The translations under genes were made by a program, and so were the position numbers. The notes beneath the pieces are model-generated. The model was not told where the DNA came from. It made no database searches and saw nothing but the letters and a program-made list of their open reading frames with translations. This document shows positions 16,965 through 42,931 of a stretch of 64,000 nucleotides of DNA, piece by piece (position 1 is the first letter of the stretch; each line of letters starts with the position of its first letter). The stretch is from Cypionkella aquatica (lineage in GTDB: Bacteria; Pseudomonadota; Alphaproteobacteria; Rhodobacterales; Rhodobacteraceae): the NCBI RefSeq assembly GCF_030161095.1, contig NZ_BSPP01000008.1, positions 11,109-75,108 of the forward strand, in the 5' to 3' direction.

Positions 16965-17096
16965 GCTTCTGCATATACCTGACGGGACACACTGAATTGT
17001 CTGAAGATTTCGGGTAAAACCTTGGGGCCATCCGCCATCCAGCCGCGACCTGCACAAAACATGGATGAAAGCAGAGATAAAACTGGAGGGATAAAG

Positions 17097-17193
17097 GTGA
17101 GAGGCTGACAACGACCCAAGCGGGTCTCGTTACGGCTGCTTCCTTCCGGACCTGACCGGGTTGGCGAGGCGCTTACCCGCGCCAACCTCTCAC
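17097..17193 (-). ncRNA. ffs: bacterial signal recognition particle RNA (4.5S type)
   Basis: The minus strand contains the conserved SRP domain IV core GGTCAGGTCCGGAAGGAAGC followed by AGCC, with flanking complementary arms. The ends pair perfectly (GTGAGAGG at 17097-17104 with CCTCTCAC at 17186-17193), giving a ~97-nt hairpin RNA of the small alphaproteobacterial type. It binds Ffh and targets nascent membrane proteins to FtsY. Exact ends are estimated from the terminal stem. Confidence 0.93.
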
Positions 17194-23108: not shown

Positions 23109-24068
23109 TCAGGCCGCCAGACCCTTGCTGCCCATATCGAGGAATTTCTGCCGCCGATCCCTGATCAAAGCCTCGGGCTTTTTGCCGGACAGCTCTTTCA
23201 GCATGGTCTCAATCGCCTTGCCAACCGCCTCGACGGTTTCCTTGCGGCCACGCTGCGCGCCGCCCATAGGCTCTTTCACGATGCGGTCGATCACGCCCAG
23301 CTTTTGCAGATCCTGCGCCGTCAGCCGCAACGCCTCGGCGGCCTCGCGCATCTTTTCGGCATCCTTCCACAGGATCGACGCGCAGCCTTCCGGGCTGATC
23401 ACCGAGTAAACCGAATGTTCCAGCATCGCGATGCGGTTTGCCGTGGCAAAGGCCACCGCCCCGCCCGAGCCACCCTCGCCGATGATCACCGAAATCAGAG
23501 GCACGCCAATTTCCAGACATTTCGCGGTGGACCGCGCAATCGCCTCTGCCTGCCCGCGTTCTTCTGCGCCCTTGCCCGGATAAGCGCCGGGGGTGTCGAT
23601 CAGCGTGATCACCGGCAACTGAAAGCGATGCGCCATATCCATCAACCGCACGGCCTTGCGATAGCCTTCAGGCCGCGCCATGCCGAAATTACGCTCGATC
23701 CGGCTTTTGGTGTCGTTGCCTTTTTCGTGGCCAATCACCATCACCGGCGTGTCGTTAAAGCGCGCAAGCCCGCCCATCACCGCATGATCATCCGAAAAGC
23801 CGCGGTCACCGGCCAGCGGGGTGTATTCCTGAAACAGCTGTTCGATGTAGTCCTTGGCATGCGGGCGCTCGGGGTGCCGCGCCACCTGACATTTCCGCCA
23901 CGGCGTCAGATCCTTGTACAGATCCTTCAGCAGCTGCTCGGCCTTGCGGTCAAGTTGCTCGGCCTCTTTGGTGACATCCATCCCCGTATTGGTCCGCGCC
24001 ATCGCGCGCAACTCTTCAGCCTTGCCTTCAATTTCGGCCAAAGGCTTCTCGAATTCGAGGTAGTTCAT
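23109..24068 (-). CDS. accA: acetyl-CoA carboxylase carboxyltransferase subunit alpha
   Basis: A 319-aa protein of standard AccA length. The N-terminus [20 protein letters not shown] is typical, as are [53 protein letters not shown] and the oxyanion-forming [12 protein letters not shown]. With AccD it transfers CO2 from carboxybiotin to acetyl-CoA in the first step of fatty-acid synthesis. The start at 24068 is taken from family alignment. The 374 bases before it hold hairpins that could be its leader. Confidence 0.95.
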
Positions 24069-24442
24069 CGAGCACTCCATCTTGCGCAAGGCTTTCTATA
24101 TGGCCGCCTACCACAGAAATTGCAACCGACGAGGCATCGCCGCCCCGCGCCAGTCCGTTCGGGCGGATTTGCTGTCGGTTGGGATGGGATCAGCGGCTGG
24201 GAAAAACCGTGGGGCGCAGGCCACTAGACCGACCACAGCCCAAACCCCAAGGCCCCAGAAACAGCACAGCCCCGTGCGTTAACACGGGGCGTGCATCCTC
24301 CCGAGGATGCGGCATCGGGCCTCCTCTCCCTTTGCCGCGCGGGTAGTTTTTCGTCAATCTTGGGACATGTTGTCGCATGTCGTGGCGTCACATTGGCGAT
24401 ACAAAACACACGAGTCAACAACATCTTTTTCGTGGTCAAATC
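24069..24442. other. intergenic region with two adjacent hairpins
   Basis: This 374-base stretch lies between accA and mcl1 (both minus strand) and has no credible gene. GCCCCGTG (24270-24277) pairs with CACGGGGC (24283-24290) over a 5-base loop, and GCATCCTC (24292-24299) with GAGGATGC (24302-24309), the two stems being only one base apart. On the minus strand they could end the mcl1 transcript or belong to an accA leader. On the plus strand they would precede CCTCCTCTCCC and a T-rich run near 24350. A small RNA is possible on either strand. Confidence 0.4.
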
Positions 24443-25402
24443 TTAAGCGGCGGCGATCATTTCCGCCTGTTTGACGATCACTTCCGCCTGTTTGATCGAG
24501 GCGATGTCCACCAGACGACCTTTATAGACCGTCGCCCCCTCACCACGCGCCTTAGCATCCGCCATCGCCGCCAGAATCTCGCGCGCTTCGGTCACTGCGG
24601 CGTCGGATGGGGTGAACACTTCGTTTGCCAAAGCGATCTGCTTGGGATGAATCGCCCATTTGCCAACCATGCCCAATGTGGCCGAGCGCCGGGCCTGCGC
24701 GCGAAAGCCTTCATCATCGCTGAAATCGCCAAACGGGCCGTCGACCGGCAGCAACCCATGTGTGCGGCAGGCGGCGACGATGGCGGCCTGCGCCCAGTGC
24801 CACGGATCGGACCAATGCCGCTGGCCGTCCCGCAACATATAGTAGTTTTCCTGCGTGCCGCCGATACCCGTGGTTTGCATCCCCATCGAGGCCGCAAAAT
24901 CCGCCGCCCCCAAAGACATCGCCTGCAGGCGCGGAGAGGATGCCGCGATATCTTCGACATGCGCGATACCGGCTGCGGATTCGATGATCACCTCAAACGC
25001 GATGGGTTTGGTGCGGCCCTTTGCGCGCTCGATCGCCGTCACCAGCGCATCCACCGCATAGACATCCGCCGCACAGCCCACCTTGGGGATCATGATCATA
25101 TCCAGCCGGTCGCCCGCTTGCTCCAGCAGATCGACCACATCCCGATACCAATAGGGCGTATCAAGGCCATTGATTCGCACAGAAAGGGTTTTGCGGCCCC
25201 AATCCAGATCATTGATTGCGGTGATCATCTGCGCGCGGGCGCTGGCTTTGTCAGAGGGTGCCACCGAATCTTCGAGATCAATATTGATCACATCCGCCGC
25301 CGAAGCCGCCATTTTGGCAAACAACGCCGGGCGCGAGCCGGGGCCGAACAGCTGGCAGCGGTTGGGACGTGCGGGCGGGCTGGGTTGCAGACGGAAGGAC
25401 AT
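24443..25402 (-). CDS. mcl1: L-malyl-CoA/beta-methylmalyl-CoA lyase
   Basis: A 319-aa HpcH/HpaI-citE family lyase. The sequence runs very close to the Rhodobacter enzyme as I remember it: start MSFRLQPSPPARPNRCQLFG, NIDLEDSVAP with the Mg-binding acids, SFEV-like IAFEVIIESAAGIAHVE, SLGAADFAASMGMQTTGI and KWAIHPKQIALANEVF. It cleaves malyl-CoA to glyoxylate and acetyl-CoA and condenses glyoxylate with propionyl-CoA, both steps of the ethylmalonyl-CoA pathway for acetate assimilation. The start ATG at 25402 is supported by this family N-terminus. Confidence 0.92.
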   Translation of the reverse strand: MSFRLQPSPPARPNRCQLFGPGSRPALFAKMAASAADVINIDLEDSVAPSDKASARAQMITAINDLDWGRKTLSVRINGLDTPYWYRDVVDLLEQAGDRLDMIMIPKVGCAADVYAVDALVTAIERAKGRTKPIAFEVIIESAAGIAHVEDIAASSPRLQAMSLGAADFAASMGMQTTGIGGTQENYYMLRDGQRHWSDPWHWAQAAIVAACRTHGLLPVDGPFGDFSDDEGFRAQARRSATLGMVGKWAIHPKQIALANEVFTPSDAAVTEAREILAAMADAKARGEGATVYKGRLVDIASIKQAEVIVKQAEMIAAA

Positions 25403-32731: not shown

Positions 32732-35140
32732 ATGAAATTCACCCTGTCTTGGTTGAAAGATCACCTCGAAACCGCGTCATCGCTTGATGACATCCTCTAC
32801 GCCCTCACCGATCTGGGGCTTGAGGTGGAGGAAGTGGTGAACCCACTGGCCAAACTCGCGCCCTTTACGCTGGCCAAGGTGATCCACGCCGAAAAACACC
32901 CCGATGCTGACAAATTGCGTGTCTGCCGGGTGATGACGGATGAGGGTGAAAAGCAGATCGTGTGCGGTGCCCCCAATGCCCGGACCGGTATCACCGTGGT
33001 GCTGTGCAAGCCCGGCGATTACGTGCCGGGCATCGACGTGACCCTTGGCATCGGCAAAATCCGTGGCGTTGAAAGCCACGGCATGATGGCCTCCGAGCGT
33101 GAGCTGGAGCTGTCGGATGAGCATAACGGCATCATCGAACTCCCCTCGGGCGAGGTCGGCCAGAAGTTCACCGATTGGCTGGCGATCAACCGCCCCGGCC
33201 TTGCCGATCCGATGATCCATGTCAAAGTCACCCCGAACCGCCCCGATGCTTTGGGCGTGCGCGGCATTGCGCGCGATCTGGCGGCGCGCGGGCTTGGGCA
33301 GCTGAAACCGCTGCCGATCCCGGCGATCAAGGGCGGTTTCGCCAGCCCGGTGCAGGTTGAAATCTCGGACGATCTGAAAACCAAAGGCTGCCCACATTTC
33401 GCTGGCCGCACCATTCGCGGCGTGACCAACGGGCCTTCACCTGATTGGCTGCAAGCCCGCCTGAAAGCCATTGGCCTGCGCCCGATCTCGGCCTTGGTCG
33501 ATATCACCAACTACTTCACCTTCGGTTTGAACCGCCCGCTGCATGTGTTTGACGCCGCCAAAGTTCACGGCAAATTGCGCGTCCACGCGGCACAGGGCGG
33601 CGAGCAATTCGCCGCACTCGATGGCAAAACCTATACACTGCGTGCAGGCCAGATGGCGATTTCTGATGACCAGGGCATTGAATCGCTTGCCGGCGTGATG
33701 GGCGGCGAAGCCTCGGGCTGCAGCCCCGAGACCACCGAAGTTTTCGTCGAATCCGCGTGGTGGGATCCGATCACCATCGCCGCGACGGGCCGCGCGCTGA
33801 AGATCAACACCGACGCCCGCTATCGGTTTGAGCGCGGCGTTGATCCCGCCTTCACCATGCCCGGCCTTGATCTGGCAACGCAAATGATCCTCGATCTGTG
33901 CGGCGGTGAGGCGTCTGATATTGCCCAAGACGGTGCCGCCCTCGACACCACCCGCGCCTACAAGCTGGACAGCGCCCGTGTGATCAGCCTTGTCGGCATG
34001 GACATTCCCGAAGCGGAACAGCGCAACACTTTGGAATCGCTGGGCTTCACCCTGAACGGCGATATGGCGACCCCGCCAAGCTGGCGGCCAGACGTTCTTG
34101 GCGAGGCTGATCTGATCGAAGAAGTCGCCCGCATCGCCTCGCTGTCGAAACTGCAAGGCAAACCCCTGCCCCGCACCACCTCGGGCGTGCCCCGTCCGAT
34201 CCTGACTCCGCTGCAAGTGCGCGAACGCACTGCGCGCCGCACCATCGCGGCGCTTGGCTACAACGAATGTGTCACCTACAGTTTCATCGACCAAACCGCC
34301 GCGACCCTGTTCGGTGGCGGCACGGATGCGGTCCGCGTCGACAATCCGATCTCGTCCGAGATGTCGCATCTGCGCCCCGATCTGTTGCCCGGCCTGTTGC
34401 GCGCAGCAAGCCGCAATCAGGCCCGTGGCTTTGGAGATATGGCTTTGTTCGAGGTCGGCCCGGCCTTCCAAGGCGGCGAGCCCGGCGAACAGCACCTGCA
34501 AGCCGCCGGTCTGCTGATCGGCCAAACCACGCCACGCGACCCCTACGGCAGCCGCCGCCCGGTCGATGTGTTCGACGCCAAAGCCGATGTCGAGGCAGCC
34601 TTGGCCGCGATCGGCGCGCCAGCGCGCACCCAGATCAACCGCAAAGCCGCAAGCTGGTGGCATCCCGGTCGCTCTGGCGTGATCGGCCTTGGCCCGAACA
34701 TGATGGCGACCTTTGGTGAGGTTCACCCGAAAGTGCTGGCCGAGCTTGGCGTCAAAGGCCCCGCCGTTGCCTTCACCATTCTGGTTGCCAATGTGCCGTC
34801 GCCAAAAGTGAAAACCCCGACCAAGCCGGCGCTGGCCTTGTCGGATCTGCAAGCGGTGGAGCGTGATTTCGCTTTCGTCGTCGATAAGGGCGTCGAGGCA
34901 TTGACCGCCGTGAATGCCGCCATTGGCGCTGACAAAGTGCTGATCGAAACCGTGCGGCTGTTCGACCAATTCTCGGGTGACAAGGCCGAGGCGCAAATGG
35001 GCGCGGGCAAGAAAAGCATCGCTTTGACCGTGCGTTTGCAGCCCAGCGACAAGACCCTGACCGAGGCCGATATCGAAGCCGTCTCGGCCAAGATCATCGA
35101 GAAAGTCAGCAAAGCCACTGGCGGCACCCTGCGCGGGTAA
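32732..35140 (+). CDS. pheT: phenylalanyl-tRNA synthetase subunit beta
   Basis: An 802-aa protein with the full PheT domain order: N-terminal start MKFTLSWLKDHLET, tRNA-binding domain (residues about 40-150, ADKLRVCRV), B3/B4 editing domain (about 210-370, LVDITNYFTFGLNRP), B5 (about 395-470, SWRPDVLGEADLIEEVARI), core (about 480-690) and the C-terminal anticodon-binding domain (about 705-800, starting LSDLQAVERDFAFVV). Length is normal. Confidence 0.95.
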   Translation: MKFTLSWLKDHLETASSLDDILYALTDLGLEVEEVVNPLAKLAPFTLAKVIHAEKHPDADKLRVCRVMTDEGEKQIVCGAPNARTGITVVLCKPGDYVPGIDVTLGIGKIRGVESHGMMASERELELSDEHNGIIELPSGEVGQKFTDWLAINRPGLADPMIHVKVTPNRPDALGVRGIARDLAARGLGQLKPLPIPAIKGGFASPVQVEISDDLKTKGCPHFAGRTIRGVTNGPSPDWLQARLKAIGLRPISALVDITNYFTFGLNRPLHVFDAAKVHGKLRVHAAQGGEQFAALDGKTYTLRAGQMAISDDQGIESLAGVMGGEASGCSPETTEVFVESAWWDPITIAATGRALKINTDARYRFERGVDPAFTMPGLDLATQMILDLCGGEASDIAQDGAALDTTRAYKLDSARVISLVGMDIPEAEQRNTLESLGFTLNGDMATPPSWRPDVLGEADLIEEVARIASLSKLQGKPLPRTTSGVPRPILTPLQVRERTARRTIAALGYNECVTYSFIDQTAATLFGGGTDAVRVDNPISSEMSHLRPDLLPGLLRAASRNQARGFGDMALFEVGPAFQGGEPGEQHLQAAGLLIGQTTPRDPYGSRRPVDVFDAKADVEAALAAIGAPARTQINRKAASWWHPGRSGVIGLGPNMMATFGEVHPKVLAELGVKGPAVAFTILVANVPSPKVKTPTKPALALSDLQAVERDFAFVVDKGVEALTAVNAAIGADKVLIETVRLFDQFSGDKAEAQMGAGKKSIALTVRLQPSDKTLTEADIEAVSAKIIEKVSKATGGTLRG

Positions 35141-35274: not shown

Positions 35275-35949
35275 TCAGCGTTTTGTGCGCCACGTGCCCA
35301 GCCAAGCCCCGATCCGGCCAAAAAATCCCCGCGCCCGCGCCTTCGCAGCCCCGGCTTGCGCCTCAACCCCGTCCCAGGTTTCGCCGACATCGGCAACCGC
35401 AGGCTCAACCATCCGCTCCCAAAATTGCAGCCACATCCGGCGCAACATGAACACGCCAAACGCCAAAGCCAGCAGCACGATGATGTTCACATAGGGGATG
35501 ATCTGCACATCCGGCCCCGCCACAGCCTTGACCGCCACCGCGTTCGGATAGATCGACAGCCAAGCCAAGCGCCAGCCGTAATGCGTCACCGACACCCACT
35601 TCGGCGCGGTTTCGGCTGATTTCAGATTGCCCGCCTCGGCTTGCAAGTTGGAACTGTCGTATTTGAAATAGGGCGGCCAGATCCAGCCGGTGTCTTCATT
35701 GCGGTAAACGATCACCGAACCGTTTTCAAAAGCCGCCTCAATAAAGCGGATATCACGCGTCACCGTGCTTTCCCCGGTGCCGACATCCGGCGAGGAATAG
35801 GCCCACGAATTTTCCGATCCAACCGTGGTCAGTCGATTGTAAGTGTTTGTAATTCTGACAATATCATGCTGCGGCAGAGTGTAGTGCAGAAAGCCTGCGA
35901 CCACGAGCAACAACAGAATTCGGAAGCTCCACTTCACATAGGTCCACAT
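35275..35949 (-). CDS. DUF1523-like membrane protein, last gene of the AAA operon
   Basis: A 224-aa protein with an N-terminal helix (ILLLLVVAGFLHYTLPQHDI), a periplasmic-side beta-rich domain (about 30-140, with RFIEAAFENGSVIVYRNEDT and WIWPPYFKYDSSNLQA), a second helix (YVNIIVLLALAFGVFMLRRM, near 148-167) and an Arg/Ala-rich cytoplasmic tail. I recognise it as the DUF1523 type, whose function is unknown. It follows the 88-aa membrane protein gene after 11 bases, so it belongs to the six-gene operon that starts at 41766. Confidence 0.75.
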   Translation of the reverse strand: MWTYVKWSFRILLLLVVAGFLHYTLPQHDIVRITNTYNRLTTVGSENSWAYSSPDVGTGESTVTRDIRFIEAAFENGSVIVYRNEDTGWIWPPYFKYDSSNLQAEAGNLKSAETAPKWVSVTHYGWRLAWLSIYPNAVAVKAVAGPDVQIIPYVNIIVLLALAFGVFMLRRMWLQFWERMVEPAVADVGETWDGVEAQAGAAKARARGFFGRIGAWLGTWRTKR

Positions 35950-35960
35950 CTGGTCGCTCC

Positions 35961-36227
35961 TTACTGATAGTTAATAAGATAGACAGTGGCCGAAACAACC
36001 ACCGCCGGAATAATGTAAATCAGCCACAACAGCCGACGCCGCAGACCCTTTTCATAGGCCGTCATACCGTCTTTGATATAGGTTTCCCGGTCGCCCTCGA
36101 TACCCCCGGCATCGAATTTCTTTTCCAGCTTCTCACGGCGAACCGAGCGCGAATAGATCGAGATCAGGACATAAATCACTGATAAGACGATAAATCCCAA
36201 GACCGCCGCGCGCAAAATGCCGATCAT
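35961..36227 (-). CDS. 88-aa two-helix membrane protein of the AAA operon
   Basis: A small protein with an N-terminal helix (IGILRAAVLGFIVLSVIYVL), a charged middle (SVRREKLEKKFDAGGIEGDR) and a C-terminal helix (LLWLIYIIPAVVVSATVYLI). The ATG at 36227 overlaps the stop of the 453-aa protein gene by 4 bases (ATGA), which strongly suggests coupled translation. With the DUF1523-like protein it may anchor the complex to the membrane. No function known. Confidence 0.75.
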   Translation of the reverse strand: MIGILRAAVLGFIVLSVIYVLISIYSRSVRREKLEKKFDAGGIEGDRETYIKDGMTAYEKGLRRRLLWLIYIIPAVVVSATVYLINYQ

Positions 36228-37585
36228 GACCGCCCCCTGTTGACCGATCCCCAAGGCCCAACAGCCGCTGCCAGATCGCGTGCGGCTTTGTGTTCCGGGC
36301 GATGGCGATTGTCCATCGACGGCTCTGGGCCAAACAAGGCTTCCCGCGCGCCCTGCGCATCGACTTTGTATTCGCGCTCCAGAAAATCGGCGACATATTG
36401 GCGTTTGCGATCCGACCAAGTGGCATATTGCGCGTAGAACAATTCCTTATGCACAATGAACATCTGCCGCACATCCATCGGTGCCAGTTCCGACAGCAGC
36501 ATGTTCACCAGATCACGCTGCGGCCCCGCCGAGGCCCGCAGAGTGTAGAAATACGCGCGATGCTCCGAGGTGATTCGCGGCCAATCGCCCGCACCTTCGA
36601 CCCAACGCAGCAAAGCGCCAAGCCCTTGAAATTCTTCGGGTAACGTATCGCCCAGACGATAGGCAATCTTGCGCAAATCGGTGCGCCGGGCGTCGCCAAT
36701 CTCTAGATCTAGTGCCTCGGCCGCATCGACCAAGACAAAATCCATCTTCTGCCGCAAAACCCCCGCCGCATCCATCCCCCGCGCCTGCACGATGGGTTCG
36801 ACAAGGCCATTTCGCTCTAACCATTCTGCAATCTCGTTACGCTGCGAGAGATCCATAGCAGAAGAAACTGGCATCTTTCCAAGGCCTTGACGAGGTTTCG
36901 CAGTGATCACGCCGGGGAATTTGACATCTCGGAACACATAGAGCCCACCAAAATGGCTGGTCCAAAAACTCGGTTGCTGAAACGTCATCGCAGGAAGATT
37001 GATCGGTACCCGCGTCACATCACCGGTTTTTTTCGCCAGCGTGATCATATCCGCCATCAACAGATCATCGCGCCAACCATCCGGCTCTTGGCGGAAGCGG
37101 TCGATCAGCTTGGCGAGCTTGTTGGCATCAGCAACATGGCCCCCAATCGTATCAGCCTCGACTGTAATCTGTCGAATTTCCAACAGCTTAGCGGGGCTTG
37201 AGATTTCGTAGATCGAATTCTGCAATTCTCCGGCCACAGCATCACGGGCCGTCAGTGCGAACAATTGGCTCTCATTGGCCTCGATGAACTGCTGTAAAAT
37301 CCCGCGAGCTGTGGAGAATTTCATGTTCAACAAAGGCGCGGTTTTTTGGCTTGTGGTCAGCAGGATGAATTGCCGATTGCAGCCGTTTGGATTGAGGTAA
37401 AGATCATCGCCCAATTCATCACCGATCTCGGGCGAATACCCAGAGATATCAATATGAAAATCCTTCATCGCGGTTTGCTTGCCAGTCAAATGCTTCAGTG
37501 CGCGATTATACCGCTCCACCAATTGCGGCGAAGATACCTCTATCAGGTTGCCGAACATCAGGCCTTTTTCGATCAGGCGCTGCAT
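36224..37585 (-). CDS. 453-aa unknown protein of the AAA operon
   Basis: A soluble protein without a signal peptide or membrane helix and without a motif I can tie to an enzyme. It is rich in charged residues and looks mainly alpha-helical. I recall families of this kind being listed as domains of unknown function (perhaps DUF6638), which I cannot verify. The ATG follows the AAA ATPase stop codon directly (TAAATG), and the next gene overlaps it by 4 bases. A role as a substrate adaptor or partner for the ATPase is inferred only from this coupling. Confidence 0.75.
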   Translation of the reverse strand: MQRLIEKGLMFGNLIEVSSPQLVERYNRALKHLTGKQTAMKDFHIDISGYSPEIGDELGDDLYLNPNGCNRQFILLTTSQKTAPLLNMKFSTARGILQQFIEANESQLFALTARDAVAGELQNSIYEISSPAKLLEIRQITVEADTIGGHVADANKLAKLIDRFRQEPDGWRDDLLMADMITLAKKTGDVTRVPINLPAMTFQQPSFWTSHFGGLYVFRDVKFPGVITAKPRQGLGKMPVSSAMDLSQRNEIAEWLERNGLVEPIVQARGMDAAGVLRQKMDFVLVDAAEALDLEIGDARRTDLRKIAYRLGDTLPEEFQGLGALLRWVEGAGDWPRITSEHRAYFYTLRASAGPQRDLVNMLLSELAPMDVRQMFIVHKELFYAQYATWSDRKRQYVADFLEREYKVDAQGAREALFGPEPSMDNRHRPEHKAARDLAAAVGPWGSVNRGRS

Positions 37586-39517
37586 TTACGCCTTACCCTC
37601 CAGATAACGCCGCTTGGCTTCTTCTTGTCGTTTGAAATCGCGCACCATACCTTCGATGGCCACCTCGTCAGATTTATCTGCATAGCGGAATTCACTATCC
37701 GCGTATCGATTGATTTCCTGAATAACCATCTCAACCGTGATCGGTGTCGTCAGCCCCTTAATCATCGTCAGTTTCTCGTCATAGGGTTTGAACAGAAAAA
37801 GTTCGGGATTCTCCATCCATTCATCTGGCAATTCAAAGTCCATCGCCCGCACCTTGACCGCATCGGTGATATTCTTGATCGCACGGCCAGTGAAACGCGC
37901 GTCTGCCTGTTGAATTGCCTTCAGATAACTGCCGAGCTTTGCCAGAGTATCCAGCGTCCCAATCTGACCCTGAACCTGATCCCAGACCTTCAGCAAGCCA
38001 TCTTCATGCGGCTTTGAATAACCCTCGAAACTGGCAGCGACCGCGCGCTTGATTTCTTGGGCCGCAAACAAATCGTGGGATCCCACTGGAATCGCATGGT
38101 TTTTACCCAGAAGCAGCGAAAGAATGTCGATGTAGTCCTCGCGGCTTTGCGGGCCATCTACCAAAAAGCGTGCCCCGGCGCGTTGGCGCAACGCGTCATC
38201 GACATTCTCTGGATAGTTTGAAAACATGCCAAAGGTGCAATTGCCGCGCACCACCGTATTGGCACCCGCAAAGGCACCCATAAAAACAGCTGTCACCTCT
38301 TGTTGTCCTGCCGAGGACTGTCGATCACCGCGTTTTCCCGCAACTTGGTCAATATCGTCGATGGTGCCAAAGCCAATGACACCGGGATCAAGGACATTAT
38401 CAATAAAGGCTTTGGCATTCTGCCCAGATTTGCCCTGATAGGAATCAATCTGGTCGATAGAGAAGTTCTGATAACGGAAAGGATAGCCCGCGATTTTGCA
38501 GTAATCGTTCAGCAGCCCTGCCATCATCTGGATCAGAGTGGTTTTACCAGTCCCCGGCTTGCCATCGCCCATAAAGGTAAAGATAAAGCCGCCCAATTCT
38601 GCGAAAGGGTTTAACTTACGCTCAAAATCATAGGCCATCAGCATTTTTGCAAGACGCAGGCTTTGATATTTGGCAATATGGTTGCCGACGACTTCTGATG
38701 GTTTCTTGAATTGGATTGTCAACGCGCCGCCTTTAGACGCGCGTGCGGGTTTAAAACCAGCAATCGACAGCATGTCAGCCTCAACCCGCCAAGCTCCACC
38801 TGTAAAGGATTGCAAGCGTGGCGCCGTTTCAGCGCGCAGGGCGACGCGCTGCATCAGCGCTTCGCAAAAGGCAGCAATCACCGCGATCAGGCGCGGCTCG
38901 TCGGTGGCGAGAAGTGCTATGTCCTGATCGAGTTCCCACAAGGCACCTTGCAGGGCCAAGGGCGCGTTGTCGGTCAGGATTTCTTCGACCGCCCCAACCT
39001 CGACCGTTGTCGAACCCATTGAAGGCGCTAATAAAAACGCCGTGGTATTGGCGAAAGTGTAAAGGGTGGTCAAAGCCTCCGCCGCCAACAGCTCGGTGAA
39101 TTCGGCGCGCTTGCCTTCGGGGAGACGGCCCTCCAGATTGGCCTTTTTCAGCTCGGCAAGACCGGATTGTGCGGCAAAAGTTTCAGACATGGCCAACGCA
39201 ATCGCCAAGCCACGGCGCAATCCGTGCAGGGCCGAGGCTTGCACCGGCGACACCAGACCATCGCCTAGGCCCTCGACCCGCTCCAACAAACGCACGCCAC
39301 CGGGCCGCGCGGTACTGCGCGCCACCATCCCGGGGGTGGTCGAGCGGAACATCGGGCGGGTGCCAATGCCGGGCGAGCGTTCGGGCTTGGCGTCCACCAC
39401 TGCGGCCTTTGCCAAGCGTGGCGCGTGATCGAAGCCCGTCAACAGCGCAAGCGCTGCATCATACTGCGTGCGGATGGTGTCTTCCCGCAGTTCCATCGTG
39501 TCACGCGCGCCGGTCAT
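37586..39517 (-). CDS. AAA-family ATPase, core of an uncharacterised operon
   Basis: A 643-aa protein. The first ~270 residues are a helical region of unknown fold. The AAA module follows, with Walker A GDGKPGTGKTT (about 317-327), Walker B-like VIGFGTIDDID (about 380-390) and a sensor/arginine-finger region SNYPENVDDALRQRAGARF (about 433-451). The C-terminal ~190 residues contain a lid and another helical domain. Start MTGARD at 39517 (GGGGGTAAC before it) is preferred; a GTG ten codons upstream is possible. It would remodel or unfold a partner protein with ATP. The subfamily is not one I can name. Confidence 0.85.
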   Translation of the reverse strand: MTGARDTMELREDTIRTQYDAALALLTGFDHAPRLAKAAVVDAKPERSPGIGTRPMFRSTTPGMVARSTARPGGVRLLERVEGLGDGLVSPVQASALHGLRRGLAIALAMSETFAAQSGLAELKKANLEGRLPEGKRAEFTELLAAEALTTLYTFANTTAFLLAPSMGSTTVEVGAVEEILTDNAPLALQGALWELDQDIALLATDEPRLIAVIAAFCEALMQRVALRAETAPRLQSFTGGAWRVEADMLSIAGFKPARASKGGALTIQFKKPSEVVGNHIAKYQSLRLAKMLMAYDFERKLNPFAELGGFIFTFMGDGKPGTGKTTLIQMMAGLLNDYCKIAGYPFRYQNFSIDQIDSYQGKSGQNAKAFIDNVLDPGVIGFGTIDDIDQVAGKRGDRQSSAGQQEVTAVFMGAFAGANTVVRGNCTFGMFSNYPENVDDALRQRAGARFLVDGPQSREDYIDILSLLLGKNHAIPVGSHDLFAAQEIKRAVAASFEGYSKPHEDGLLKVWDQVQGQIGTLDTLAKLGSYLKAIQQADARFTGRAIKNITDAVKVRAMDFELPDEWMENPELFLFKPYDEKLTMIKGLTTPITVEMVIQEINRYADSEFRYADKSDEVAIEGMVRDFKRQEEAKRRYLEGKA

Positions 39518-39558
39518 GTTACCCCCAATCCATTTCAAATCAAACACTTACGCATAAT

Positions 39559-40692
39559 CTAACGAGCTGGCATGATGCGATCACCCGCACCCACGACGAA
39601 CTTGCGCACATCGCGAAATCCGGCTGGATTCAGATCGGCGAGAACCTGATAGGGGCGCTCTGGCAGGATCACCATGCGCTCAATTCGCGTCGAGCCGCTG
39701 TCGCTGGCGATTGGATCAAGTTTGTAGACCTGTCGTTCTGCGCTGGAGAACCAACCTTCTTTGACCTCTTCCTCGCGGTCAGAGATCAGATCCTCGACCG
39801 TCCAGACCAAAGCCCAATCGTCGCCATCGGATGCATTGGCATCCGCCAAAACTTGCGCGATTGGGCCGGATTGCAGCGTGAAATCATGGCTGTGCATTGG
39901 GCCAAGCGTGATGCGGCGCAAGCGTTTCGGATGCAAGCCCGCGAAATCTTTATCAAATCCTTGGGCGATGGTCAGCAGCTTTAATCCCAGCGCCGATTGC
40001 GCCATGAGATGCGCCTGCGCCATCGGCCAGCGGCGGTCATCATTCGGCAGCGATTTTTTGCCGCTGTCCTCGACATCCATCATATAGACCACCGGCAGAT
40101 TGGCTTGGGTGTCATAGACCGCCCAATGCAGCAGGAAATGCTTGCGGTCGCTGCCGTCGCGGCGAACATCCTCGATCCATTGGCAATCAGGGTCATTGCG
40201 CGGCCAGAAGATGCTGCCTGCGGCGAGGGATTCGTAGTAAAGTCGCTGGCTTAGCGCGAATTGCAGCTGGATCGGCACCGTCAGATCACGCACAATCTGG
40301 CGCACCATGCGGTCTTTGAGTTCCACTTCGGAGGCCATACCGCCGAGGTGTTTTTGCACCTGCGCCGCGTCCAGCGCCATCATCATCAGCTCTTGCGCGA
40401 CGGGAAAACCAGAATCGTGGCGATCAAAAGTCAGGCGGGGAGAGCCTTCCGCCCGCCCCGTCATCAAGTATTTGTAGCTCAGTGCCTTGAACGTGCCCGT
40501 CAATGCAGCAAGGTAGCGGCCCAGCACGCGGGCTTCGGTGCGGGTCAGGCGACCTGCGGCCTCAACCTCGCCCGCGACGCGGACGAGATGACGGGTGATC
40601 CGCTCAAACTTGGCGAAGTAGCGCCGCGCGGTGAGCGTATCGTAAAGTTCCTGATGATCGCCCGTCAGCTGATCTTTGACCGTTTCGGCCAC
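39559..40692 (-). CDS. 377-aa unknown protein of the AAA operon
   Basis: A soluble protein with a helical N-terminal half (residues 1-160) and a beta-richer C-terminal half (WALVWTVEDLISDREEEVKE near 295; RIERMVILPERPYQVLADLN near 340). No signal peptide, membrane helix or catalytic motif is apparent. It starts 3 bases after the stop of the coiled-coil gene and is followed by the ATPase gene after about 40 bases, so it is co-transcribed. Function unknown. Confidence 0.75.
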   Translation of the reverse strand: MAETVKDQLTGDHQELYDTLTARRYFAKFERITRHLVRVAGEVEAAGRLTRTEARVLGRYLAALTGTFKALSYKYLMTGRAEGSPRLTFDRHDSGFPVAQELMMMALDAAQVQKHLGGMASEVELKDRMVRQIVRDLTVPIQLQFALSQRLYYESLAAGSIFWPRNDPDCQWIEDVRRDGSDRKHFLLHWAVYDTQANLPVVYMMDVEDSGKKSLPNDDRRWPMAQAHLMAQSALGLKLLTIAQGFDKDFAGLHPKRLRRITLGPMHSHDFTLQSGPIAQVLADANASDGDDWALVWTVEDLISDREEEVKEGWFSSAERQVYKLDPIASDSGSTRIERMVILPERPYQVLADLNPAGFRDVRKFVVGAGDRIMPAR

Positions 40693-40695
40693 GGA

Positions 40696-41766
40696 TTACT
40701 CCCCATACGCGTTCTTGTCGTGCTTCTCGACGATCTTGGCGAACCGCCGCGCAAAGCGCTCATCCGCCTTGGCTTTTTGCTCCAGCACTTCGCGGGCGAA
40801 GACCATATGGCCTTCATGGGCTTCCAGCATATCGGCCATTTTCTGGTTGGTTGCCGCGCCAATCGCGGCCATTGCCACCTGCGCCTCTTGGTCGGTTTTC
40901 ACGCCGATCTCATTAATGCGGTGCGCCACATCCTGCTGCTGTGCGGTCTTCAAGCTGGCGGTCAAAGCATCATAAAGCACCACGCGCTGCTTGGTGTCCG
41001 TTTGCAGTTTATTGATCAAAACCAGCTGTGTGGCGGCCTGATTGGTCAAGCTATCGACCCAAGTTTTACCTTTTTCTATATAGCGCTCAAGCGTCTGCGA
41101 TTTCGCCAGCTGCACTTGCTCGTCCTGCACCAGGGCGTTGTAGCGCCCGTTCAGGGTGGCGAGTTCGGTTTCCAGTTTGGTGCGCGCGCCTGCGTCTTGT
41201 TCGACTGAAATCTTGTTTTCCAGCTCGATGATCTTGGGATCCATGCCGCCCACTTCGGCGCGCACGGCTTCCAAAGCCATTACCGTCGCCTCGCGTTCGG
41301 TCAAGGTCGCACCCAAGTTCGATTCGACCGTGGCTTTCTGCGCGTTCAGCATATCCAACTGGCCCTGCAGCAGACGCACGATGATGTCGGATTTAGAGAT
41401 CAGATCCTGCAACTTGCTGTCAATCGAGGCAGTGCGCATGCGCTCTTGCCGCATCGATTCCGATTTGGCGTTTGAAAATATGCCGATAAAGCTTTCCATC
41501 CCGGTTTTCGAGCGCATCTCGTCGAAATCCTTCGAGAAGCCGGCCGTGACGTCATCCAAGCCCATAATCAGCTCGGCGATATTGGCGTTCATCAGGTCGG
41601 TGTGCTTATGCACATCTTCCAACGAGGCGTTTTCGATATCAACCGAAGTGCCTGCGTCCAACTTGGCGCGCGCTTCTTCGATCCGACCAGTGATCGCCGA
41701 AATCTTCGCCTGTGCCGCAGCAACCTGGGCTTGGCTTTGCTGGATCTGCGTGTCGAAATCGGCCAT
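40696..41766 (-). CDS. coiled-coil protein, first gene of the AAA operon (distantly TelA-like?)
   Basis: A 356-aa protein almost entirely of long alpha-helices with heptad character (DFDTQIQQSQAQVAAAQAKI at the start; IIELENKISVEQDAGARTKL in the middle; ALTASLKTAQQQDVAHRINE late) and no membrane helix. The overall layout reminds me of TelA/KlaA or of membrane-remodelling coiled-coil proteins, but I see no diagnostic motif. GGAGGGTTCG precedes the ATG at 41766. As the first gene of the operon it may form the polymer or scaffold on which the ATPase acts. Confidence 0.75.
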   Translation of the reverse strand: MADFDTQIQQSQAQVAAAQAKISAITGRIEEARAKLDAGTSVDIENASLEDVHKHTDLMNANIAELIMGLDDVTAGFSKDFDEMRSKTGMESFIGIFSNAKSESMRQERMRTASIDSKLQDLISKSDIIVRLLQGQLDMLNAQKATVESNLGATLTEREATVMALEAVRAEVGGMDPKIIELENKISVEQDAGARTKLETELATLNGRYNALVQDEQVQLAKSQTLERYIEKGKTWVDSLTNQAATQLVLINKLQTDTKQRVVLYDALTASLKTAQQQDVAHRINEIGVKTDQEAQVAMAAIGAATNQKMADMLEAHEGHMVFAREVLEQKAKADERFARRFAKIVEKHDKNAYGE

Positions 41767-42091
41767 CGAACCCTCCGTTATGAATACAGTGCCATCATAT
41801 AGGCATGTTAAATCTAGATACATCACTTTGACCGGGAATATTCGCAGTGTCCCGCGCGCCACGGCGCGACGCTTTGCCCCTATAACCGATCACGCCATCC
41901 TTGCCGCAGTCAGCGCCGGTCGCCAAGAGATTATTGGTCTGTTGCATGATATGATCCAAGTGCTGCCACTTGATCCGCCGAGGCAGCAACTTGGTGAACG
42001 GATCAGCACACAGGATAAAGGACTGCGCCAAGATGATGGCGCTGGTGTTGCAGGATTTGCTGGCGATTTGACCCTGCGCCCACGAGTGCGG
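41767..42091. other. promoter region of the AAA operon and panC 3' flank
   Basis: A 325-base interval between panC and the coiled-coil gene, both minus strand. Short frames occur on both strands without motifs or good start sites. It probably carries the operon promoter within the A/T-richer 41770-41830 part. No strong hairpin was noticed. Confidence 0.4.
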
Positions 42092-42931
42092 CTAGACCGG
42101 GATATTGTCGATCAGTCGCACTTCGTCCAACCAAGCCGCAGCCAACATCCTGCGGGGGCGTCTTGTGTCATCCGAGGGCATCAAGGTTTCGGCATCTCGC
42201 AACTCAATATATTCCACCCGATCAAAGCCAGCATGCCGCAGCTTTTCGGCGGCTTCGCGGATCGCCATACGATCAGATTGGCCAGCGCGAATATCTTCTG
42301 CGGCTGTCGAGATCGCGGCATAGAGCACGCCGGCAATCGCGCGGCCTTCGGGCGTCAGGCGGCTGTTGCGCGACGACATCGCAAGGCCGTCAGCCTCGCG
42401 TATCGTCTCACAGCCGACGATGGTGATGGGCAGGTTCAGATCGCGCACCAGCCGCAAGACGACCTGCAACTGTTGCCAGTCTTTTTGGCCAAAATAGCCC
42501 CTGTCGGCCATGGTCATCCCGAACAGTTTGGTGACAACGGTGGCGACACCGTCAAAATGCCCCGGACGCATCCGGCCTTCCAAGGGTTCAGACACGCCGC
42601 CGACCGACACCGTCGAAGTGAAGCCATCGGGATAAACCTCGTCCGGCTGGGGTGCGAAGATGACATCGACCCCGACCGTTTGCAGCAGGGCCGCATCGGC
42701 GGTTTCTGTACGGGGGTATTGCTTGAGATCATCAGGGTTGTTGAACTGCTTGGGATTGACAAAAATTGTCACGATCACCCGCTGACAGTCCGCTTTCGCC
42801 GCACGCGCCAAAGACAAATGCCCATCATGCAAAGCCCCCATCGTTGGAACAACGCCAACGACCTCGCCCGCCGCCTTCCAGCCACGCACCAGAGCACGCA
42901 GATCGGCAATCTTGCGGATGATTTGCGTCAA
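42092..42931 (-). CDS. panC: pantoate--beta-alanine ligase
   Basis: A 279-aa adenylating ligase of pantothenate synthesis. The nucleotide-binding segment is [18 protein letters not shown] (near 28), followed by [36 protein letters not shown] and the lysine-containing FGQKDWQQL. It joins pantoate and beta-alanine using ATP. The gene overlaps panB by 4 bases. Confidence 0.95.

Follow-up and report, generated by a model that had tools for sequence, protein, structure and literature searches.

A stretch of 64,000 nucleotides from Cypionkella aquatica (Rhodobacterales, Rhodobacteraceae; contig NZ_BSPP01000008.1, positions 11,109 to 75,108), hereafter the window, carries six adjoining minus-strand genes. 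They encode a helical, coiled-coil-type protein (CC), a protein of 377 amino acids (S377), an ATPase of the AAA family (AAA), a DUF6638 protein, a small membrane accessory (M88) and a DUF1523 protein. The unit held together by evolution consists of the first four of these genes, not of all six, and it recurs in the same order in every locus kept for comparison. Its engine is a classical AAA ATPase; its partners and its architecture match nothing that was tested. At slightly less than an even chance, we tentatively regard the four proteins as the core of a hitherto uncharacterised AAA+ remodelling machine that works at the inner membrane together with membrane partners that can be exchanged.

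The set has been found in many marine and soil bacteria, including rhizobia (Mesorhizobium, Sinorhizobium), and it joins three orphan Pfam families, namely DUF6638, DUF1523 and DUF2333. A search of open-licence papers returned no description of the joint operon or of its function, in line with an earlier note on this DNA, made from its letters alone, to which the set had seemed undescribed. Its function is directly testable, since the unit of four genes is clearly delimited, is naturally missing at the panC-pheT site of some genomes and has swapped partners in nature.

The four-gene core and its inheritance

In the window, CC (40696..41766, 356 amino acids), S377 (39559..40692, with a GTG start), AAA (37586..39517, 643 amino acids), the DUF6638 protein (36224..37585, 453 amino acids), M88 (35961..36227, 88 amino acids) and the DUF1523 protein (35275..35949, 224 amino acids) are separated by 3, 41, 0, −4 and 11 bases. 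The earlier note had these genes, lengths and gaps right throughout. Its view of all six as one unit did not survive the comparison with relatives, for which regions holding the ATPase or DUF6638 were selected. Seventy-two such regions were fetched and 71 kept; the remaining one (L042) was dropped, being a region around a sub-threshold DUF6638 hit with none of the genes there.

CC, S377, AAA and DUF6638 keep their order and orientation in 71/71 loci, an arrangement far beyond chance, and the same four-gene order was also seen in Vibrio (two records of the four hit, with profile scores of 257-668 bits for the core genes) and in Sinorhizobium (one record of four). What follows the core is less constant: M88-DUF1523 in 62 of the 71 loci, DUF1523 alone in 2 and neither in 7. 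The expectation that six genes stay together in many genomes is borne out for the core and more loosely for the tail. A gene order that broke down even in close relatives, named in advance as a refutation of the system, was not encountered, and the finding stands.

Among 244 genomes of the order, all of which belong to the window's own family, AAA and DUF6638 were found in identical sets (137/137). In one genome (G863, contig C52, about 23296-24806) both occur only as adjacent short fragments, one of them with a stop, which we read as probable decay or loss of the operon. Over 62 loci, the distance matrices of the core genes correlate mutually at r 0.77-0.85, and those of the core with M88 and DUF1523 at r 0.46-0.60, where permutations reach at most about 0.4, shared ancestry contributes and short membrane proteins are noisier. 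The core appears to have been gained or lost as one block, with DUF1523 standing alone, because sites without the core in the window's genus retain DUF1523. Four genomes of that genus without the ATPase (G392, G394, G395, G397) read panC-DUF1523-pheT at this site, and a fifth (G391) reads panC-M88-DUF1523-(1.7 kb)-pheT. A tblastn search for the four core genes gave no match in the fetched stretches of these five sites (L302-L306); the genomes are 75-95% complete, with the site itself intact, and M88 is short enough to be missed.

The ATPase is present in 17 of 41 relatives and in 60 of the 101 genera of the order sample, and the source genome has it in one copy. Across the phylum its profile found 26 of 398 genomes, comprising 14 of the window's family (its own included), 10 of the rhizobial family f174, one of f179 and one genome outside the class (G448). 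Within the class, 7 of 385 genomes have a DUF6638 match above its cut-off. At least 505 relatives were confirmed in GTDB contigs. The best 80 of these are Alphaproteobacteria, mainly Rhodobacterales and Hyphomicrobiales, and include Aestuariispira, Hellea, Robiginitomaculum and Mesorhizobium. A plasmid collection gave ten matches (Sinorhizobium 4, Vibrio 4, Shinella 1, Rhizobium 1), all on replicons of 0.88-4.6 Mb. No homologue was found in 50,697 phage records, and none was confirmed in viral contigs. With plasmid matches on large replicons only, a recent phage or plasmid origin is unsupported. Flanking genes change between genera and the block itself is kept (31 loci compared).

Two of the more distant loci deserve separate mention. 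The genome outside the class is a single contig, and its complete six-gene operon (L099) encodes an ATPase 71% identical to the window's, a level that many genera of the window's own family also show; the operon looks like a case of horizontal transfer. In Vibrio (L174, L175), on replicons of about 0.9 Mb recorded as plasmids, the core adjoins mfd, the gene of the transcription-repair coupling factor, with a DUF3592 gene annotated past it.

The proteins of the core

Residues 319-452 of AAA match the Pfam AAA family (PF00004) with 44.4 bits and E 2.8e-11, which passes the family cut-off of 21.2. As the earlier note had stated, the protein carries a Walker A motif GKPGTGKTT and an IDDID-type Walker B, and both are invariant. 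In an alignment of 48 sequences (A10, made up of the window plus 47 of the 71 loci), K325, D387, D388, N434, R446, R450 and G544-R545 are kept throughout, and these positions remained unchanged once the Vibrio sequences were added. We take N434 to be sensor-1, the arginines to be those of the arginine finger and G544-R545 to be a GR motif of the sensor-2 type. At the position of the catalytic glutamate, the residue is aspartate (D388) in 48/48 sequences and in Vibrio as well, so that the expected glutamate is missing. BCS1 is a natural exception among such ATPases, having no catalytic glutamate in its Walker B.

Against PDB sequences, the best matches of AAA are an i-AAA protease (E 4.2e-05) and fidgetin-like 1 (E 7.2e-04), with katanin, Vps4 and Msp1 at E above 0.001, and its profile gave two matches (E 3.2e-4 and 0.0092). 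PADLOC returned a weak TRIP13 match (E 2.9e-4, 18.3 bits), the remaining matches being weaker. The presumed sensor-1 and GR motifs resemble those of TRIP13/Pch2; this is consistent with the match and is not proof of kinship. Among PHROGs, the matches were weak (AAA best at E 1.4e-06, DUF1523 at 0.0012, CC at 0.0073). With classical AAA remodellers (Vps4, Msp1, katanin, fidgetin-like, TRIP13/Pch2) the protein shares the AAA domain, Walker A and Walker B and, if we name the motifs correctly, the asparagine of sensor-1, the finger arginines and the GR of sensor-2. It differs from them in the modest score of its best PDB match, in the aspartate, in its other partners and in an N-terminal part of about 300 amino acids that matches no Pfam family. 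A MIT domain gave no match, as judged by Pfam profile search alone.

Of the six proteins, CC varies least, with a mean pairwise identity of 78% (73% for AAA; 62 loci). Because its conservation is the highest, CC may engage in many contacts. It has no Pfam family above cut-off, and the same is true of S377, the first part of which is helical and the second mainly beta. The 453-residue protein, which the earlier note had counted among the unrecognised ones, is a clear member of DUF6638 (PF20343; E 6.8e-212, 704.5 bits vs a cut-off of 27). An NCBIfam scan placed none of the six proteins above cut-off.

Structures were predicted for S377 (predicted local distance difference test, pLDDT, 94.5; predicted template modelling score, pTM, 0.91) and DUF6638 (pLDDT 86.0, pTM 0.83), in each case with the window aligned to 70 of the 71 loci. 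Foldseek found no PDB match for either at E <= 0.001, an absence that is weak evidence in itself. Against viral proteins the S377 model gave nothing at that threshold (best E 0.0041, TM-scores near 0.1), and PDB sequence-profile searches with S377, DUF6638 and CC produced no match below E 0.2. As the models are confident and yet lack a PDB match, both proteins may have new folds.

Membrane genes and variable slots

M88 and the DUF1523 protein each have two hydrophobic segments by a hydropathy count, consistent with their earlier description as membrane proteins; one DUF2333 protein has one segment. M88 has no Pfam family above cut-off. Membership of the other in DUF1523 (PF07509; E 2.1e-63, 213.3 bits vs a cut-off of 23) is solid and goes beyond the resemblance first noticed. 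DUF6638, DUF1523 and DUF2333 are assigned by profile, and these family names are catalogue entries only.

M88 and DUF1523 are a looser addition to the core. Almost every genome of the order sample has DUF1523 (236/244), namely 137/137 with the core and 99/107 without it, and its association with the core is weak (Fisher p 0.0012). In all 8 rhizobial loci (7 from f174, fetched out of 10 genomes found, and Sinorhizobium) a DUF2333 protein follows DUF6638 in its place. Altogether, 72 of 74 loci have, behind the core, a gene whose product carries hydrophobic segments (DUF1523 in 64, DUF2333 in 8), the two exceptions being Vibrio. As a separate observation, the DUF1523 protein at the panC-pheT site of four core-less genomes of the same genus shares only about 50% identity with that of the window, compared with 76-92% in the core-bearing loci L032, L040 and L041. 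This divergence does not simply track loss of the core, since the core-less L306 still shows 85%.

The operon also has places where genes come and go. The AAA/DUF6638 junction (37585..37586, minus strand), which is empty in the window, ranges from −4 to 1486 bases in relatives and exceeds 150 bases in 55/71 loci. The CC-S377 gap does so in 32/71 and the S377-AAA gap in 7/71, and the DUF6638-M88 and M88-DUF1523 junctions stay at or below 40 bases across 62 loci. A sense open reading frame (ORF) whose product has two or more hydrophobic segments lies in 34 of the 55 long AAA-DUF6638 gaps and in 15 of the 32 long CC-S377 gaps, with 0 in the antisense control of each. An iterative profile search with a permissive threshold (E 0.01) placed 23 of 112 mechanically called slot ORFs in one fast-changing family, its members being mostly about 110 amino acids long with 3-4 segments.

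The larger occupants of the AAA-DUF6638 slot are varied. They include genes for AbiJ_NTD4 (L028), DUF3825 (L029) and DUF2971, the last with a PADLOC match to PDC-S31 (L125, E 4.8e-20), together with DUF559 nuclease-like genes in the rhizobial L095 and the Rhodobacterales-type L138 and L139. HEPN-like slot proteins in L104, L107 and L137 are below cut-off, and some larger slot genes are unnamed by family. In the Sinorhizobium record, the same gap is occupied by two genes, one with an endonuclease domain and one for an IS4-type transposase. When 19 slot proteins were chosen by hand for each library (18 common to both), 6 reached the Pfam cut-off and one gave a PADLOC match at E <= 1e-5. Slot proteins of L109, L112, L117 and L146 have 2-3 hydrophobic segments and no Pfam family above cut-off; those of L109, L112 and L146 have in common a GDTLAG/GDTFAG-type stretch ahead of a long helix, and L117 a similar GDAIAG. 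Slot genes often overlap DUF6638 by 4 bases. This was not counted as a sign of coupling, since DUF6638, which usually begins with Met-Lys/Arg, supplies ATGA by itself.

Possible function and surroundings of the locus

The reading of the core as a remodelling machine was adopted because the core order is constant, the genome sets of AAA and DUF6638 are identical and the core distances are correlated. Moreover, the ATPase motifs are invariant, the weak PDB matches are AAA remodellers, a membrane-type gene nearly always follows the core, and the slots often encode membrane proteins. The four proteins would work on the inner membrane from its cytoplasmic side, where AAA, presumably as a ring, would spend ATP to build up, take apart or pull out some target, in whichever direction the reaction may run. 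CC, which may bind the ATPase, would be a likely scaffold or a polymer-forming substrate, and S377 and DUF6638 could serve as obligate adaptors in contact with AAA. DUF1523 (mostly with M88) in Rhodobacterales and DUF2333 in rhizobia, if their segments do cross the membrane as the hydropathy count suggests, would act as docking partners or clients, and the fast-changing small proteins of the slots may be further ones.

Several observations weigh against this proposal, and the main doubt comes from Vibrio. Neither DUF1523 nor M88 nor DUF2333 was found near the core in the two fetched Vibrio records, and because the core stands there without them it may manage without these three. The simple hydropathy count finds no membrane segment in any of the four core proteins, and the presence of DUF1523 in most core-less genomes means that its adjacency to the core may be incidental. 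The aspartate in place of the catalytic glutamate could make ATP hydrolysis weak. The predicted models of S377 and DUF6638 offer no functional hint, CC matches neither the PspA nor the TelA profile significantly, and in one genome (G950) AAA and DUF6638 match on different contigs.

The same facts can be arranged differently. A conflict or anti-phage module is possible, though we doubt it: the core would sense infection or envelope damage, and the slot genes would be interchangeable effectors or helpers. The patchy, all-or-none presence of the core, its absence at the same site in five genomes of the window's genus, flanks that differ between genera and a six-gene set in another class of the phylum (L099) would fit such a module, as would AbiJ_NTD4, DUF3825, DUF2971/PDC-S31, DUF559 and sub-cut-off HEPN-like genes in the slot. 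However, many slot genes encode small membrane proteins, the window's own slot is empty, and few of the chosen slot proteins match the libraries. No core protein clearly matches a PADLOC model of a known anti-phage system, TRIP13 being the best, and the phage records and viral contigs speak against it as well. It is unlikely that the core is a cytoplasmic housekeeping or stress protein-quality machine whose membrane genes merely share its transcript. The four genes without hydrophobic segments in Vibrio, the separable DUF1523 and the slow evolution of CC and AAA are what such a machine would predict, but the core is absent from 107 of 244 genomes, unrelated membrane-type families (DUF1523, DUF2333) trail it in two bacterial families, and small membrane genes appear repeatedly inside the operon.

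Kinship with known membrane systems is more improbable still. In a divergent member of the TelA toxic-anion type, or of the phage shock protein (PSP) and endosomal sorting complex required for transport (ESCRT) type, CC would be the counterpart of TelA or PspA, and the ATPase that of Vps4. PSP/ESCRT operons that pair PspA or Snf7 with AAA ATPases are described in an article whose text mentions neither TelA nor DUF1523 (PMC11237479). Like the module, they encode an AAA ATPase together with membrane proteins and a helical protein of the coiled-coil type. CC is long and helical like TelA, and their best alignment runs collinearly for about 149 columns (pairwise E 0.016, compared with 0.064 for the reversed control and 0.039 for PspA), which is a hint and not membership. 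Against this, CC has no match at E <= 1 to the TelA (PF05816) or PspA/IM30 (PF04012) profile, the hhalign probabilities are 0.2-2.8 of 100 for TelA and 1.3 for PspA, so that TelA does not stand out, and genes of both families lie elsewhere in the source genome. Snf7, the partner expected of Vps4 in ESCRT-III, was not found by profile among the six proteins, and the module has instead the constant partners S377 and DUF6638, which lack a matched fold. MoxR-VWA systems likewise combine an AAA ATPase with non-ATPase partners, but Pfam profiles detect a MoxR-type AAA or VWA family in 0/6 proteins. The profile and hhalign tests thus agree with the earlier impression that TelA, PspA and MoxR do not match. 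TRIP13-HORMA, known from cyclic-oligonucleotide-based antiphage signalling systems (CBASS), was not adopted either: profile searches gave no HORMA match, and no PDB entry matched the models of S377 and DUF6638 at E <= 0.001.

A bolder form of the remodelling-machine proposal, which we consider unlikely, is a new AAA+ class in which an obligate core of four proteins, two with folds not seen before, has exchangeable membrane anchors and a cargo slot and serves in defence against envelope breach or phage. The slot's small membrane proteins, and at times Abi-, HEPN- or nuclease-like proteins, would be clients or effectors switched by the ATPase. Should the slot genes encode clients or effectors, the module would represent a modular membrane machine of a new type. 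Judging by the order of locus tags, SMc02733 presumably belongs to the operon of Sinorhizobium meliloti and is a possible lead. A fragment within it appears in a ChvI DNA-binding screen (PMC3687685).

The operon is placed between panB-panC upstream and pheT downstream, the neighbours being named by NCBIfam equivalogs. panC (42092..42931, minus strand; TIGR00018, 296.4 bits) is separated from CC by 41767..42091, the presumed promoter region of the operon, in which a simple sigma-70 scan found no site. The convergent pheT lies at 32732..35140 on the plus strand (TIGR00472, 636.3 bits). A terminator-like site (35214-35196) is found 61 bases beyond DUF1523; such sites are rarer here than in shuffles, and the promoter and terminator scans, with site counts below those of shuffles, are uninformative. 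Farther away in the window, a small signal recognition particle (SRP) RNA gene (Rfam RF00169) occupies 17095-17192 on the minus strand.

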